A DNA stretch of 64,000 nucleotides from Planctomycetota bacterium (GTDB lineage Bacteria; Planctomycetota; Phycisphaerae; Sedimentisphaerales; Anaerohalosphaeraceae): NCBI GenBank assembly GCA_019456225.1, contig VRUI01000001.1:1-64000 (forward strand). The letters run 5' to 3'. Both the position numbers and the translations under genes were made by a program. Below, piece by piece: positions 31,229 through 64,000 of the stretch; the stretch's first letter is position 1, and every line of letters starts with the position of its first letter. The notes below the pieces were generated by a model. That model worked only from the letters and a program-made list of their open reading frames with translations. It was not told the DNA's origin and did not search any database.

Positions 31229-32050
31229 TTACGCTTTGTCATCTCTATTGCTCATTTCGCCAAGTTCGGCTTGTACGCTAAGGTGTTTCTTATACGCCAG
31301 CACGATCCCTTTTATCACCAGGTTCGGCACCCACGAATCGACAAATTCGCAATCGGGTTTTATGGTCTCGGCGCATCCGCCGGTCACTATCGTCTGGGGC
31401 CACTTGTCAAGCTGTTCGGCATAATTTTCGCATACCGTCTTCAAAAGCCCCACCGCCGAGTAATACAGCCCGGCGTTTATAGCGTCATGCGTATTTCCGC
31501 CGACAGGGTCTCTGGGTCGGGCAACCTCAACCTCCGGCAGTTGAGCGGTATTTACGCCAAGCGCTTCTGCTGAGATACCAAAACCCGGCGCGATCACCCC
31601 GCCCAGGAAGACTCCCTGTTCGTCGATCAGATCGATAGTTACCGCCGACCCGAAGTCGGCAACTACGACCGCATCTTCAACGACTGCAAAAGCCGCCGCC
31701 GCCGCGACGATACGGTCCGTACCAACCTCGTACTTGTTGTCAACAGCCATCTCAATAGGCAGATCGATATCGACGCCGATAACTTTTATCTTTTCGTCAA
31801 GTTCGTCTGCGCAGATGTCCTTAACCATATCGCACCAATCCGGCTTAACCGAACTGACAACGATAACTCCCTCGCGTTTATGCACCGTGTCGCTTTTAAC
31901 GAACGGAAACTGCCCCCACGCGTCGATCAGCATATTGCTAAGCCTGTCGCGGTCGCCGCCGCTGACCGACTCGATAAACTTCTCAATGTTATCGACAAAC
32001 AGCCCGACACTAATAGTACTATTGCCAATATCAACAGCAATTATATTCAT
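31229..32050 (-). CDS. coaX: type III pantothenate kinase
   Basis: A 273-residue ASKHA-fold kinase for the first step of CoA synthesis. The phosphate loops are VDIGNSTISVGLF at the N-terminus and VADFGSAVTIDLIDEQG, followed by LGGVIAPGFGIS and the TGGCAETI second loop. Length matches the family. GGAAG precedes the start. It and the MnmE-like gene downstream are separated by 76 bp of low-complexity CGCTGCCCG sequence. Confidence 0.93.
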   Translation of the reverse strand: MNIIAVDIGNSTISVGLFVDNIEKFIESVSGGDRDRLSNMLIDAWGQFPFVKSDTVHKREGVIVVSSVKPDWCDMVKDICADELDEKIKVIGVDIDLPIEMAVDNKYEVGTDRIVAAAAAFAVVEDAVVVADFGSAVTIDLIDEQGVFLGGVIAPGFGISAEALGVNTAQLPEVEVARPRDPVGGNTHDAINAGLYYSAVGLLKTVCENYAEQLDKWPQTIVTGGCAETIKPDCEFVDSWVPNLVIKGIVLAYKKHLSVQAELGEMSNRDDKA

Positions 32051-36190: not shown

Positions 36191-37132
36191 TCAAGCATAT
36201 AATTCAGATTTCCAATATTCTTTTTTAGCTACCATGACGTTTAAAATCGTCAACATTTTCCGCATGCACGCTGTTACAGCGGTCATTTTAGTTTTGCCGG
36301 CTTTGAGTAGTCGCTGGTAAAACTCTCTGATTGCAGGGTTATGCTGTATTGCCACCAAAGTTGGCATATACAGTTTTGCACGAACAGATCCCCGGCCACC
36401 GCCGGTCATGCGTTTACCTTTAAATGTACCGCTGTCTCTGGCTATTGGAGCCAGCCCAGCCAGTGAAGCAATTTGTCTACGAGTTAGCGATCCCAACTCA
36501 GGCAGTTCTGTCACCAGCATTGAGGATGTAATTTCACCAATGCCAGGCATACTTTCGGCGATCTTAGCTTTAGTATTCATCTCTGGATCATTGCTTATGC
36601 AGCCTTTGATTTCCTCGTCAATACTTTCAATTTGTTTTTCAAGCAGTTTAATTATAGCTTTTAAACTTCTGTCTACAAACTTAGCAACATCATGGCCCTG
36701 GCGATTCAGTTCGGCGGTTCGCATTCTGATCAGTTGCCCACGGCGAGCAACCAGAGATTTGATCTTACGAGTGCTTTCAGTAATCATTGCCGAAGTTGGC
36801 GGTTTCAATACACTGGCAAAAAAGGATATGGCCTTAGCGTCAATATTGTCTGTTTTAGCCAGTATTCCGGCAGCTTTGGCAAAATTTCTGATCCTGGCTG
36901 GGTTAACAACTGAAACCACCAGCCCAGCTTGCTGAAGGCCCATTGCCAAATTCATTTCATAACCGCCGGTAGCTTCAATTACGACCAATACCGGAGCGAG
37001 TTTAACAAGTGCTTTAGAACATTTCTTGATACCCTTGACATCATTATTGAAATGTTCAACCTTGTTATTGCCGTTGACATTGAGATCAAAAGTAAACTTT
37101 GATACATCTATTCCTGCAAATTTTTCACTCAT
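36191..37132 (-). CDS. IS110 family DEDD transposase
   Basis: A 313-residue RuvC-like/Tnp fusion. The N-terminal DEDD domain has GIDVSKFTFDLNV (first Asp), VVIEATGGYEMNLAMGL (Glu) and KTDNIDAKAISFFA (last Asps). The middle contains a coiled stretch. The C-terminal Transposase_20 domain (ESMPGIGEITSSMLVTELPE, SLAGLAPIARDSGTFKGKRM, RGSVRAKLYMPTLVA) contains the conserved Ser of the active site. GGATGGG precedes the ATG. IS110 recombinases are guided by a bridge RNA. It looks intact. Confidence 0.95.
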   Translation of the reverse strand: MSEKFAGIDVSKFTFDLNVNGNNKVEHFNNDVKGIKKCSKALVKLAPVLVVIEATGGYEMNLAMGLQQAGLVVSVVNPARIRNFAKAAGILAKTDNIDAKAISFFASVLKPPTSAMITESTRKIKSLVARRGQLIRMRTAELNRQGHDVAKFVDRSLKAIIKLLEKQIESIDEEIKGCISNDPEMNTKAKIAESMPGIGEITSSMLVTELPELGSLTRRQIASLAGLAPIARDSGTFKGKRMTGGGRGSVRAKLYMPTLVAIQHNPAIREFYQRLLKAGKTKMTAVTACMRKMLTILNVMVAKKEYWKSELYA

Positions 37133-37330
37133 AATTTTCCCATCCTTGCAAATGCGGGTTCATTAGCATATAATGTCCCTTGCGACTGTTCGGGTTAATA
37201 TTATAATAGCAGCAGTGTCTCATGCTTTAATACGGGATTTACTCCCAAGGTCCAACCGAGTTCACTGCCGCCGGTAGCCTCTACGCAAGGCTAACAAAGC
37301 TAAGATTTATAGCTTAATTCCTTAAAGAGT
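37133..37330 (-). ncRNA. candidate IS110 bridge RNA region
   Basis: Non-coding leader of the transposase with several potential stems: the 37200-37300 part, read on the minus strand, includes GGCTACCGGCGGCAGTGAAC, GGTTGGACCTTGGGAGTAAA and GACACTGCTGC. No ORF. By analogy with IS110 elements, bridge RNA would be expressed from this end and contain loops that read target and donor DNA. This is inference: I cannot fold it or show loop complementarity by hand. Confidence 0.35.
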
Positions 37331-37693
37331 TAAGCATTCTAATATTATCGAATAGTCGCTTATTTTTGCTTAATTTTTCAATTTTTTCGACAAAATTTGA
37401 GTGGCTTTCAGCCACAGTTTTGGTTTTGGCTTGCCCTGTCATACTCCGACGAGATCTGGAAGTCCCATTCTCGTCTGCCATGCCAAACCAAACCCAAAAC
37501 TACATTATATGATTATACAAAGATCCGACGAACGAATGGCGGTTGCTTAAGGGTTTGTTTCACTGAAGATTCCTTGATTTCGCCCAGAAAATGAGGTTTC
37601 GTGGTACTGGATGTTATTGGATTTTTGCTAATGCAACCGCCATTAGTCCGGCGGACCTTTAATTCTTTCCAAATTTTAATTCCAAAAAACTTC
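37331..37693. other. 363-bp spacer with a 25-bp imperfect inverted repeat
   Basis: AATGGCGGTTGC (37535-37546) is perfectly inverted at 37633-37644, extended outward to about 37522 and 37657. It may be a small mobile palindrome of about 136 bp. A non-coding stretch around 37395-37500 resembles dispersed palindromic sequence. No supported gene. Confidence 0.45.
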
Positions 37694-37722
37694 TTGACAA
37701 ACAGACCTATTTATGTTATAAT
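37694..37722 (+). promoter_or_regulatory. consensus promoter upstream of the T-arm-like leader
   Basis: TTGACA (37694-37699), 17-bp spacer, TATAAT (37717-37722). Predicted start about 37729. Both hexamers are perfect, so transcription should be strong. Confidence 0.78.
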
Positions 37723-37739
37723 TGTTTTTATAGTAATGA

Positions 37740-37791
37740 GAATTTAGAGCTAAGGGGCTTACGCAGGTTCGATTCCTGTTTTTCCTTAGCT
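37740..37791 (+). ncRNA. leader hairpin with a tRNA T-arm-like core
   Basis: AGCTAAGG (37748-37755) pairs with CCTTAGCT (37784-37791). Inside is GCAGG-TTCGATT-CCTGT (37763-37779), a five-pair stem with a seven-base loop TTCGATT that exactly fits a tRNA T-arm. There is no D-arm, anticodon arm or CCA, so it is not a tRNA gene. GAATTTAGAGCTA (37740-37752) overlaps the outer stem and is perfectly inverted at 37966-37978, so the leader can instead fold back onto the far end of the short ORF. The outer extension GGGCT/AGCCC makes 18 of 20 pairs. Confidence 0.5.
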
Positions 37792-37862
37792 GTTGGGTAT
37801 GTCTACTAATTTTAATCATTAACGGATCTTTTCCGTCCCTGATAATTCCTGGAGGTATGCTC

Positions 37863-38012
37863 ATGAAGAACATATTTATTGTTGTACCAATAGTTTTAAA
37901 TTTCGTAGTTGATGTTTTCAAAAATGTTATAGCCAACAAGATAGGTGAGTGGTTCACCAGCCCTCTAGCTCTAAATTCATTTTCTTTACTAAACTCTCCA
38001 TCTACACAATAG
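37863..38012 (+). CDS. 49-residue hydrophobic small protein (candidate type I toxin-like)
   Basis: ATG 37863 follows CTGGAGG with a six-base spacer, an excellent ribosome site. The product begins MKNIFIVVPIVLNFVVDVFK (one membrane helix), then a basic/polar segment NVIANKIGEWFTSPLALNSF. It is too short for homology judgement. The ORF end overlaps the 3' arm of the fold-back repeat. A strong promoter, structured 130-nt leader and small hydrophobic peptide are a combination seen in type I toxins, but no antisense RNA is evident. It could also be a random ORF in a structured RNA. Confidence 0.45.
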   Translation: MKNIFIVVPIVLNFVVDVFKNVIANKIGEWFTSPLALNSFSLLNSPSTQ

Positions 38013-38124
38013 GCATCCGGTTTATAATACCCGAAGGGTCTTAAGTTACCCAAAACAAAGAACCCAAAAAGACACCCACAACCAAAAATGCGGCAAAGGT
38101 AAGTTTGGGGAAAGTTTCGTTCAA

Positions 38125-38961
38125 TTACTCTGCTATCTTTGATTTCAGATAATTCACGAAAGCTGAACAGGAAACCAAGAAGTAGATGGCATCCGCCTGA
38201 GTTAGTGTTGATTCTTCGAGCATGGCGTGCCTTATTCCATCACCATCGCTGGTATAACCGTATAATTTAAGAAAGCCATCCTTCAAAGCTGGATGTAATT
38301 CATGACTCTTACCAAGTTTTTTCAGTGCCGCCCCAAGCGTTGCGGATTTGGACTCGGTGATCTTCCAGCTAACGCTCTCGACTGCAGAAATGGACTCCTT
38401 GATCGAATTCCTATAGTCAGGATTCGTTTTATCACTCAGGAGATCCAGGGCGGACTTCATATGTGCACTGGCTCCGGGAAATGTGTTATCTCCAATGGCT
38501 TCTTGAATTGCCTCTACTTCCTCGGTTGACGTAATCGGGGCGACCTTGCCATCAATAATACGGTATCCGGCTAACTCACGTTCGAGCATACTATTTAGAA
38601 ATGCTGTCAGTTCCTCAAGATCATAATAGTCAACACAGAACTCCACGAAGTTGTAAACTTCATACCAAATGCAGTCGAAAAAATACGCCCTGATCTCTTC
38701 TAGAATTCTGGAATTGTAACCAGAACGCTTATCGATCGGTCGCTTAAAATAGTTGGTCCAAAGCGATTTACTGAACGCTTGTATTCTTGCTTCACAACGA
38801 TTATGTTGAGAGCCATAATTGCTGAGAAAACTATTCAGACCAAATTTTTCAGCATAAAGCACGTTCCATATACCATTGCGTAGAGTATCATTCATGCCAT
38901 CCACTTGGATGACGTCTGAAACTGGCCTGAATCCCATTCGTTCGCTAAAGTTCATCTCCAT
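38125..38961 (-). CDS. AbiJ-type abortive infection protein (AbiJ_NTD4 + HEPN-like)
   Basis: A 278-residue protein. The N-terminal FSERMGFRPVSDVIQVDGMN and DTLRNGIWNVL pattern is that of the AbiJ_NTD4 domain. The C-terminal half, with NPDYRNSIKESISAVESVSW, then TLGAALKKLGKSHELHPALK and GDGIRHAMLEES, is a HEPN-like helical domain with a Arg-His pair (GIRHAM) in the position of the ribonuclease motif. AbiJ-like genes protect against phage by killing or arresting infected cells. It is read leftward and is preceded by a 58-bp promoter block almost identical to that of the neighbouring TPR gene. Trigger and target unknown. Confidence 0.85.
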   Translation of the reverse strand: MEMNFSERMGFRPVSDVIQVDGMNDTLRNGIWNVLYAEKFGLNSFLSNYGSQHNRCEARIQAFSKSLWTNYFKRPIDKRSGYNSRILEEIRAYFFDCIWYEVYNFVEFCVDYYDLEELTAFLNSMLERELAGYRIIDGKVAPITSTEEVEAIQEAIGDNTFPGASAHMKSALDLLSDKTNPDYRNSIKESISAVESVSWKITESKSATLGAALKKLGKSHELHPALKDGFLKLYGYTSDGDGIRHAMLEESTLTQADAIYFLVSCSAFVNYLKSKIAE

Positions 38962-59661: not shown

Positions 59662-59671
59662 TATTTTAGTC

Positions 59672-59773
59672 AGTTCGCCAGGGGTGGTCTGTTTGGCCTG
59701 AGAAATACCCTTTGAACCTGATCAGGAAAGGCTTTTGGATTAGTTCCTTGCCGACCTGCGTAGGGAAGCGACG
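59672..59773 (+). ncRNA. TPP riboswitch (THI element)
   Basis: The conserved core GGGGTG..CCTGAGA..ACCC..TTGAACCTGATCAGG and the 3' GCGTAGGGAA are all present. P1 can pair TCGC (59675-59678) with GCGA (59768-59771). It binds thiamine pyrophosphate. Confidence 0.93.
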
Positions 59774-59792
59774 TGCGTTACAGTTTTTGTAA

Positions 59793-60017: not shown

Positions 60018-61328
60018 ATGTCGACCCAGTTGGAAATTGCCAGGAGCGGTCAAATAAGCGACGCGGTTAAATCCGTTGCCGCTATCGAAAATCTTGCCCC
60101 AAAATTCATTCGTGACGAAGTTGCGGCGGGGCGTATTGTTATCTGCGCCAATAAGGTTCACCTTGCCGACAACCTCGTTCCAGCAGGTATCGGCAGGGCA
60201 CTGACGGTTAAGATCAATGCTAATATCGGGGCAAGCGATGTTCGTTCTTCGCTGGACGGCGAGGTCGAAAAAATGAAGATGGCGATCGACCTCGGGGCAG
60301 ATGCGATGATGGACCTGAGCACCGGCGGCGACCTTGACGAGATACGCACGCGGCTGCTTTCTCACTGCAACGTGCCTTTTGGGACGGTTCCGCTTTATGA
60401 GGTTATCACCGACCGCAGTGTCGAAGAGATCGACCGCGATTCGATCCTGAAGGTTGTAGAAAAGCAGGCAAAGCAGGGCGTTGATTTCTTTACGATACAC
60501 GCCGGTATCCTTCGCGAACATCTCGACCTGATCGGCAGCCGGGTTTGCGGTATTGTCAGCAGGGGGGGAGCGCTCATGGCTAAGTGGATGATTCATCACA
60601 ACAAGCAGAATCCGATGTTCGATATGTTCGACGATCTTTGCGCGATCATGCGTGAGTATGATGTTTGTTTTTCGCTGGGCGATGCACTTCGGCCCGGCTG
60701 TATTGCGGACGCTACCGACGAAGGGCAGATCGCAGAACTTCGCACGCTTGGCGAGCTTACGCAGCGGGCGTGGGAAAACGGCTGCCAGGTTATGGTAGAA
60801 GGGCCGGGGCATGTGCCGTATCATGAGATACAAAAGAATATGGAGATGCAGCAGGAGATTTGCCACGGTGCACCGTTCTATGTGCTCGGGCCGCTTGTAA
60901 CGGATATCGCGCCCGGGTATGACCATATTACCTCGGCTATCGGCGGGACGGCTGCGGCTGTTTACGGGGCTTCGTTTTTGTGTTATGTAACTCCGCGCGA
61001 GCATCTTGGTCTGCCCGATGTTGAAGATGTTCGGCAGGGCGTTATCGCCTCGAAGATCGCCGCACACGCAGCTGATATCGCAAAGGGTTTGCCCGGTGCG
61101 GCTGACCGCGATCTGCGTCTTAGCACGGCAAGGGCGAACCTGAACTGGAACGGGCATATCTCCGAATCGCTCGACCCGAATACCGCCCAGCGGATGCATG
61201 AGGAGGCTTGTGCCGGAAGCGAGATGGCCGAAACAAAAGATTCTGCCGACTACTGCACTATGTGCGGAAGAGACTGGTGCAGCGTGCGGATAAACAAGGA
61301 GATTCGAGATGCCTGCGGCAAGCAATAA
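60018..61328 (+). CDS. thiC: phosphomethylpyrimidine synthase ThiC
   Basis: A 436-residue radical SAM enzyme that converts AIR to HMP-P for thiamine. The C-terminal Fe-S motif CTMCGRDWC is present. It uses a shorter N-terminus than the E. coli enzyme. GGAG precedes the start. The methyltransferase gene overlaps its last 20 bases. Confidence 0.97.
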   Translation: MSTQLEIARSGQISDAVKSVAAIENLAPKFIRDEVAAGRIVICANKVHLADNLVPAGIGRALTVKINANIGASDVRSSLDGEVEKMKMAIDLGADAMMDLSTGGDLDEIRTRLLSHCNVPFGTVPLYEVITDRSVEEIDRDSILKVVEKQAKQGVDFFTIHAGILREHLDLIGSRVCGIVSRGGALMAKWMIHHNKQNPMFDMFDDLCAIMREYDVCFSLGDALRPGCIADATDEGQIAELRTLGELTQRAWENGCQVMVEGPGHVPYHEIQKNMEMQQEICHGAPFYVLGPLVTDIAPGYDHITSAIGGTAAAVYGASFLCYVTPREHLGLPDVEDVRQGVIASKIAAHAADIAKGLPGAADRDLRLSTARANLNWNGHISESLDPNTAQRMHEEACAGSEMAETKDSADYCTMCGRDWCSVRINKEIRDACGKQ

Positions 61329-63145: not shown

Positions 63146-64000
63146 TTAGGTTCTTGTTAGTTTTCTGTAGATCAGGAAAGCGATTACTGAAAGGGCTACT
63201 AGTCCGGACCACATGACAATAATTCCTGTGTTTTCCGGCATTGCGGCGTTCCTTGTTTTGGTCAGTTCCTTGCCCGACATGATAAAGACGATCAGTGCCG
63301 CGGCAGGAATTGAGCTTGCGCCGAACGCGCTAAGCAGGTGTCCGCCTTTGAATATTATCCCAAGCGCCACGGCGAAAAGAATCAGCGTGATCGACCCGAT
63401 CCCGAAAACCAGTCTCGTATGAACCTCCGAGAGGATCTTTTTTGAGGTGACCCACATTTCACGGTCGGCAATTTTTTTAAGATTGATAAGCGTACCAGAA
63501 GGATTTGCGGCAATAACCGGATCTTCTGTTTCCGGGTTGTTTATCGCAGCGATCAAATCGGCAAGAGTTTGCTTGTTCAATTTATTGCTGATTTCCGGAG
63601 TGAGTTTAATACCTGGAAAAACTTTTCTAAGAAGCGGGGCAGGCCCTTTGAAGTCTCCCTTTCCTTTCCATGATGTGTTAGTAAGCATCAATCCCAGTTT
63701 CGAGTCCGGCTGGTTGTCGGAAAAGGTGAGCTCGGCTTTGTCGTCCGAGGTCCACGTGAGGCTAAGCCGGCGAGAAAACCTGTTATATTCATGGAGTTTA
63801 ACAGGTGGTTCAAAACTGATCGTGTTATCGGCCTGGGCCTTACACCCGGCGGTGAATATCTGTAATATCTTGTCTTCTGTGGCGAATTGATAGAAACCTA
63901 TTTCCGGATCGGCGATTTTTTTGGCGATGTCTTCTGCGAGTGCTTCAGTGGCGAGTTGTGCCCTTGCCGCGAGCATCTTATCTCTTACCGGTCCGAATTT
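63146..64000 (-). CDS. LptF/LptG-type permease, partial (continues beyond window)
   Basis: The frame is open through the right edge. The visible 284 residues contain the jellyroll (FSRRLSLTWTSDDKAELTFS) and the last helices (FGIGSITLILFAVALGIIFK, SIPAAALIVFIMSGK). Its partner is the gene at 61979. The 5' end lies outside the window. Confidence 0.78.
   Translation of the reverse strand, partial: KFGPVRDKMLAARAQLATEALAEDIAKKIADPEIGFYQFATEDKILQIFTAGCKAQADNTISFEPPVKLHEYNRFSRRLSLTWTSDDKAELTFSDNQPDSKLGLMLTNTSWKGKGDFKGPAPLLRKVFPGIKLTPEISNKLNKQTLADLIAAINNPETEDPVIAANPSGTLINLKKIADREMWVTSKKILSEVHTRLVFGIGSITLILFAVALGIIFKGGHLLSAFGASSIPAAALIVFIMSGKELTKTRNAAMPENTGIIVMWSGLVALSVIAFLIYRKLTRT

Follow-up and report, generated by a model that had tools for sequence, protein, structure and literature searches.

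A candidate toxin-type mRNA with a 5'-3' fold-back in Planctomycetota and its relative in a prophage region

Introduction

The hok/Sok system of plasmid R1 in E. coli combines a short hydrophobic toxin with a long structured leader, a metastable 5' hairpin and a 5'-3' fold-back that silences the full-length mRNA (PMC8167048, PMC6733600). In the AapA/IsoA systems of Helicobacter pylori, successive hairpins mask the Shine-Dalgarno sequence (SD) during transcription, followed by a 5'-3' long-distance interaction (PMC6733600). This order, with metastable hairpins first and the long-distance fold later, applies to aapA3 and partly to hok; in aapA3 the long-distance fold replaces the metastable SD hairpins, and 3' trimming activates translation (PMC6733600). 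Type I toxin-antitoxin loci have been described as limited to Proteobacteria, Firmicutes and Tenericutes, together with one cyanobacterial case, msoT1/msoA1 of Microcystis aeruginosa, which a 2025 report presents as the first type I system beyond these three phyla (PMC12390103). The narrow range has been attributed to search methods that depend on similarity to the sequences of known loci (PMC12390103). We found no report of type I toxin-antitoxin in planctomycetes in the literature searched.

Here we describe a locus in a 64-kb stretch of a Planctomycetota genome (the window, meaning the whole stretch of DNA analysed). Similar to hok/Sok, a short hydrophobic peptide, a structured leader, a 5' hairpin and a fold-back of the mRNA ends are predicted. 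The locus differs from hok/Sok in that HOK_GEF similarity is absent (no Pfam, NCBIfam or PHROG match), the coding sequence itself, rather than the region after it, contains the 3' arm of the fold-back, the leaders of the locus and its one relative share no start codon or SD for a mok-like overlapping frame, and no Sok-like antisense gene was recognised. As in AapA/IsoA, an SD-masking hairpin precedes the long-distance fold in growing transcripts; in contrast to AapA/IsoA, this hairpin coexists with the fold-back, 3' trimming alone leaves the SD closed in silico, and there is no Rfam or Pfam match. Because defining features of each family were tested for and not found, we place the locus in neither. 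The cyanobacterial msoT1/msoA1 shows that systems of this kind exist in other phyla, and the comparison with it concerns distribution.

A promoter, a structured leader and a small hydrophobic ORF

The elements of the locus, all on the forward strand, are as follows.

37694-37722 (+): sigma-70 promoter with extended -10; the relative has TTGCAA-N17-TATAAT at equal distance
37740-37759 (+): 5' arm of the fold-back, overlapping the 5' strand of the local hairpin
37748-37791 (+): 5' local hairpin, with outer stem AGCTAAGG/CCTTAGCT and inner T-arm-like stem GCAGG/CCTGT
37794-37863 (+): second leader hairpin, masking the SD (GGAGG, 37851-37855) and extending to the start codon; kept in the relative
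37863-38012 (+): ORF of 49 codons for a hydrophobic peptide, modelled with one helix (residues 3-32)
37959-37978 (+): 3' arm of the fold-back, within the ORF (coding for SPLALNS), pairing with 37740-37759; VPLALHS in the relative, likewise paired
38029-38042 (+): ACCCGAAGGGTCTT hairpin, a possible transcript end; a strong T run is absent and the terminator role is putative

The preliminary description of this DNA had proposed a perfect TTGACA-N17-TATAAT promoter, and our data agree. The promoter at 37694-37722 has a TG preceding its -10 element. Only one other exact TTGACA/TATAAT pair at 17-nt spacing occurs in the 64 kb, and the score of the promoter is well above the background (15.9, versus 7.9 for the median of the best scores per 480-nt strand segment). 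Transcription is predicted to start at approximately 37729 and, judging from the sequence, the mRNA would span approximately 37729 to 38045. Folded as a whole, this transcript has a z-score of -2.8, and none of 100 shuffles was as stable. The 14-mer of the ACCCGAAGGGTCTT hairpin occurs at two further sites in the genome. The GC content of the element is 34% compared to 47% for the window, which would suit acquired DNA.

The 49-residue ORF with an SD and a one-helix hydrophobic product, also part of the first account, is present: it begins at the ATG at 37863, downstream of GGAGG at 37851-37855, and its stop codon ends at 38012, while an alternative in-frame ATG at 37857 would give 51 codons. 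The peptide was modelled as one helix with moderate confidence, and is probably a single-helix membrane peptide. The peptides of the window (49 residues) and of the relative (42 residues) both reach a top 19-residue hydropathy of approximately 2.1, and both fall within the size and character expected of type I toxins (under approximately 60 residues, hydrophobic).

A relative with the same order of elements

A peptide search of genomes from the same order returned one match (E = 0.006), which proved genuine once its flanks were read. The relative (L064) lies on contig JAEIOG010000037.1 of Phycisphaerae bacterium MAG24, was also recovered by a pattern scan of the genome collection and is approximately 60% identical to the window element. 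We found that the promoter, 5' hairpin, SD hairpin, SD and ATG, ORF and fold-back arm all occur in the same order as in the window. In the relative, TTGCAA-N17-TATAAT is followed by GAATGTAGAGCTAAG, the 5' hairpin, a strand beginning TTGGGC that pairs with GGAGGCTTGCCC, and an equally spaced ATG; its peptide is MNELIIVITVFASTFVIDVFKGILANFATALVHVPLALHSNL, and the stretch coding for VPLALHS pairs back to the 5' end. The similarity between the two leaders has a probability of approximately 3e-8 against shuffles. The preliminary description had named loss of the stems or of the ORF as grounds for giving up its reading, and in the one relative to which this could be applied both are conserved. Since this planctomycete relative keeps both folds and the peptide, the locus has the appearance of a hok-like toxin gene that silences itself.

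The relative is antisense between helicase-like and primase-like genes, with an integrase-like gene in the region and Doc-like and AbiEii-like genes beside it. These gene names come from inspection of the translations by eye, and they place the relative in the replication region of a prophage.

Leader hairpins and the 5'-3' fold-back

Folding reproduces the five-pair stem with a TTCGATT loop that had been described as nested in the AGCTAAGG/CCTTAGCT stem. The inner stem GCAGG/CCTGT occupies 37763-37767 and 37775-37779, its outermost pair is G-U, and the loop spans 37768-37774. The outer stem is retained in the relative with one two-sided change. By itself the 5' hairpin is unexceptional, as 89 of 1000 shuffles fold equally well. 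The SD-masking hairpin at 37794-37863, which was absent from the preliminary description, is the part of the leader that matters most for translation. In the local-fold form, 27 pairs are present in both members with two two-sided changes and none broken, a covariation signal that is weak alone (140 of 500 shuffles in the control). Masking of the translation site by structure is predicted for both members, with consistent changes between them.

The inverted pair 37740-37759/37959-37978 matches at 18 of 20 positions, as originally noted. Between the 5'-terminal 60 nt and the 3'-terminal 90 nt of the transcript, a pairing energy of -43.1 kcal/mol was calculated, compared to a shuffle mean of -19.8 (sd 4.2), and none of 1000 shuffles reached it; the end-to-end pairing of the relative, tested separately, was likewise reached by 0 of 1000. 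Both members have standard pairs at all 59 paired positions of the fold-back form. Of the 19 pairs in the terminal helix, 13 are unchanged, three carry one-sided and three carry two-sided changes, and none is broken, although this covariation is limited in that it rests on two sequences. When partners were slid by 1-3 columns, 38-50% still paired, a control that flatters the structure because the structure was derived from the same two sequences; the shuffle control for the fold-back gave 12 of 500 shuffles.

We found that the two folds proposed at the outset, a local hairpin or a long-range fold-back, exclude each other only in part. The exclusion holds for the outer AGCTAAGG stem, whereas the inner T-arm-like stem and the SD hairpin can stay within the fold-back. 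Folding of growing transcripts predicts that the SD is masked once the leader is complete, and that the appearance of the 3' arm gains 18-21 kcal/mol with the SD still masked. Across untrimmed and 3'-trimmed forms, the calculated cost of opening the SD is 4.1 to 5.1 kcal/mol for the window RNA and 8.7 to 8.8 kcal/mol for the relative. The SD is predicted to open most readily once the SD hairpin has lost its 5' strand as well (approximately 2 kcal/mol in the relative and 2.8-2.9 kcal/mol in the window RNA).

Proposed mechanism and alternatives

We consider it moderately probable that the locus encodes an mRNA of the toxin type whose silencing begins during transcription and persists afterwards, similar to hok and AapA, and that it represents a new family. 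The strong promoter would fire, and the 5' hairpin would form first on the emerging leader, followed by the SD hairpin, blocking ribosome loading on the nascent RNA. The 3' arm at the end of the ORF would then displace the outer stem of the 5' hairpin and pair with the 5' end, sealing the RNA as a stable inert form in which the SD remains paired. These three steps are supported by sequence, predicted folding and conservation. By analogy with the known systems, activation would require processing that strips the 3' arm and the anti-SD strand, after which the peptide would probably insert into the membrane and harm or arrest the cell. The activated mRNA would normally be destroyed by a partner RNA, probably one antisense to the leader. 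An antisense RNA could make contact at the conserved UUCGA of the apical loop, which would be compatible with a U-turn (YUNR) motif. The opposite-strand genes flanking the relative in its prophage could supply an antisense transcript.

This reading is weakened by the number of members (only two), by the lack of a conserved antisense promoter and of similarity to a known toxin, and by an SD that stays shut after 3' trimming. On the minus strand within the gene we found no promoter matching at 9 of 12 positions, and the weak candidates lie at non-matching positions in the two members; none is convincing as a conserved antisense promoter. The initial comparison to hok-type toxin RNAs is upheld in its logic of leader, fold-back and small hydrophobic ORF, which the conserved relative supports with compensatory changes. 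More tentatively, we suggest that Planctomycetota and their prophages carry a new family of self-silencing toxin mRNAs. In its members, the final conserved toxin codons would also serve as the sealing arm and, with the SD hairpin shut after 3' trimming, activation would take two cuts, unlike hok or AapA.

A non-toxic, conserved small membrane peptide of mobile elements, gated by the same folds and serving for example in prophage superinfection, lysis timing or signalling, is a rather unlikely alternative. The structure and ORF evidence is equally compatible with it, no antitoxin RNA was recognised, and the relative is located in a phage replication region. However, a tiny hydrophobic ORF under such tight double masking is typical of toxin mRNAs, and no non-toxic example of such a layout was found in the searches made.

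We next consider a structured noncoding or dual-function RNA, whose ends pair for the function of the RNA while the ORF is secondary or spurious. The strongest conservation falls in the RNA stems, and the tail of the ORF past the fold-back arm, encoding the C-terminus, is unconserved between the members. Nevertheless, the SD, ATG and spacing are common to both, and the sole internal indel of the ORF is 3 nt and thus in frame. When equal numbers of substitutions were placed at random, amino-acid similarity exceeded chance for the ORF (p=0.002) and also for the ORF minus the fold-back arm (p=0.005), which makes the noncoding reading improbable. The leader read in the frame of the ORF gave p=0.29 in this test, and dN/dS is approximately 0.46. 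These sequence comparisons suggest protein-level constraint on the ORF and none on the leader; a coding leader, for which the frame is open through both leaders, was rejected.

A relic of a tRNA 3' end (the attachment-site scar of an inserted element) or a T-arm mimic, with the remaining pattern coincidental, is very improbable: GGTTCGATTCC matches the T-arm consensus exactly and tRNA 3'-end-like sequences lie near other loci of PDC-S32, the family of a neighbouring gene (L058, L059), but no acceptor strand adjoins the hairpin, no tRNA of the genome carries this T-arm, the relative keeps the hairpin despite a U-C in place of the loop-closing pair (ACAG-UUUCGAAAC-CUGU), and conservation covers the whole gene, beyond the hairpin. 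The tRNA T-arm aspect of the preliminary description is not supported; ARAGORN and gathering-level Rfam were also negative for T-arm membership. A piece of tmRNA was rejected as well, the genome already having a tmRNA on contig C31.

If the toxin-type reading is true, the locus places the type I kind in Planctomycetota and their prophages, having been noticed through its RNA layout. As a signature, structure-led searches could then look for a single 5' segment that can pair both with a neighbouring stretch of the leader and with the final part of a small hydrophobic ORF, and the repeated evolution of self-silencing in toxin mRNAs would become testable.

Distribution and family searches

At ordinary thresholds, no DNA relative was found in 98 related genomes, 392 genomes of the phylum, phages or plasmids, and no match came from viral, genome or plasmid collections scanned with the peptide. 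Covariance models were run on genomes of the order (161), the class (397) and the phylum (392) and recovered no member beyond the two, a count that is a lower bound since the filters used on large sets miss weak matches. Within the searchable genomes the family is rare, both members lying in the 161-genome set of the order. Other candidates were read and rejected. The pattern matches L065, L066, L073, L074 and L075 and the covariance matches L076 and L077 (the last a tRNA) are unrelated and lack the order of elements; among the other weak peptide matches, L006 and L007 show no leader, and for L008-L011 the comparison was made on the peptides.

The element belongs to no Rfam, Pfam, NCBIfam, PHROG or PADLOC family at usable scores; matches in Rfam were at chance level, including tRNA-Sec at 15 bits, and Foldseek against viral models returned nothing significant. 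The Rfam, Pfam, NCBIfam and PHROG negatives bear out the earlier remark that no known family fits.

Genomic surroundings

To the left of the element is an IS110-family transposase gene (36191-37132, minus strand). The IS110-family element as a whole spans 36191-37383, and the 5' noncoding part shares 94% identity with a stretch at the end of contig C105. Just upstream of the gene is a palindromic repeat (37524-37661, approximately 125-140 nt) that recurs in the genome (G000:C149:1051-1531 and G000:C130:7771-7907), with the copies on C149 arranged head-to-tail in tandem; it is possibly a MITE-like or other mobile repeat. A promoter-like site on the minus strand, TTGTCA-N16-TAAAAT (37673-37700), stands back to back with the promoter of the gene and would send RNA leftward into the palindromic repeat, and a weaker site is found at the equal position in the relative.

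To the right, and convergent with the element, is a gene for a 278-residue AbiJ_NTD4 protein (38125-38961, minus strand), which matches the PADLOC candidate defence family PDC-S32 over almost its full length. Eight further PDC-S32 loci, spread over seven genomes of the phylum, have no such element nearby, and the adjacency is therefore probably incidental. The tRNA 3'-end-like sequences near PDC-S32 at L058 and L059, in two other genomes, may be island attachment sites.

Several tRNA-like stretches were observed elsewhere. Two near-identical stretches of approximately 165-175 nt, L079 (G000:C72, approximately 173760-173920) and L080 (G000:C113, approximately 63820-63980), begin like the 5' half of a tRNA-Leu (GGCAGTGACGGAATGGTAAACGT) and end in a T-arm and acceptor end (GCAGGTTCGACCCCTGCCTGCC), with approximately 90 extra nt between; in both, ARAGORN found no tRNA, also with introns allowed, and Rfam gave no match. 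L026 (G000:C33, approximately 31450-31530) resembles the 3' part of a tRNA-Arg at 20.6 bits, under the Rfam gathering score, and is a possible attachment-site remnant. Further along the window, an ordinary TPP riboswitch (59670-59783, plus strand) lies upstream of a ThiC-like ORF at 60018.
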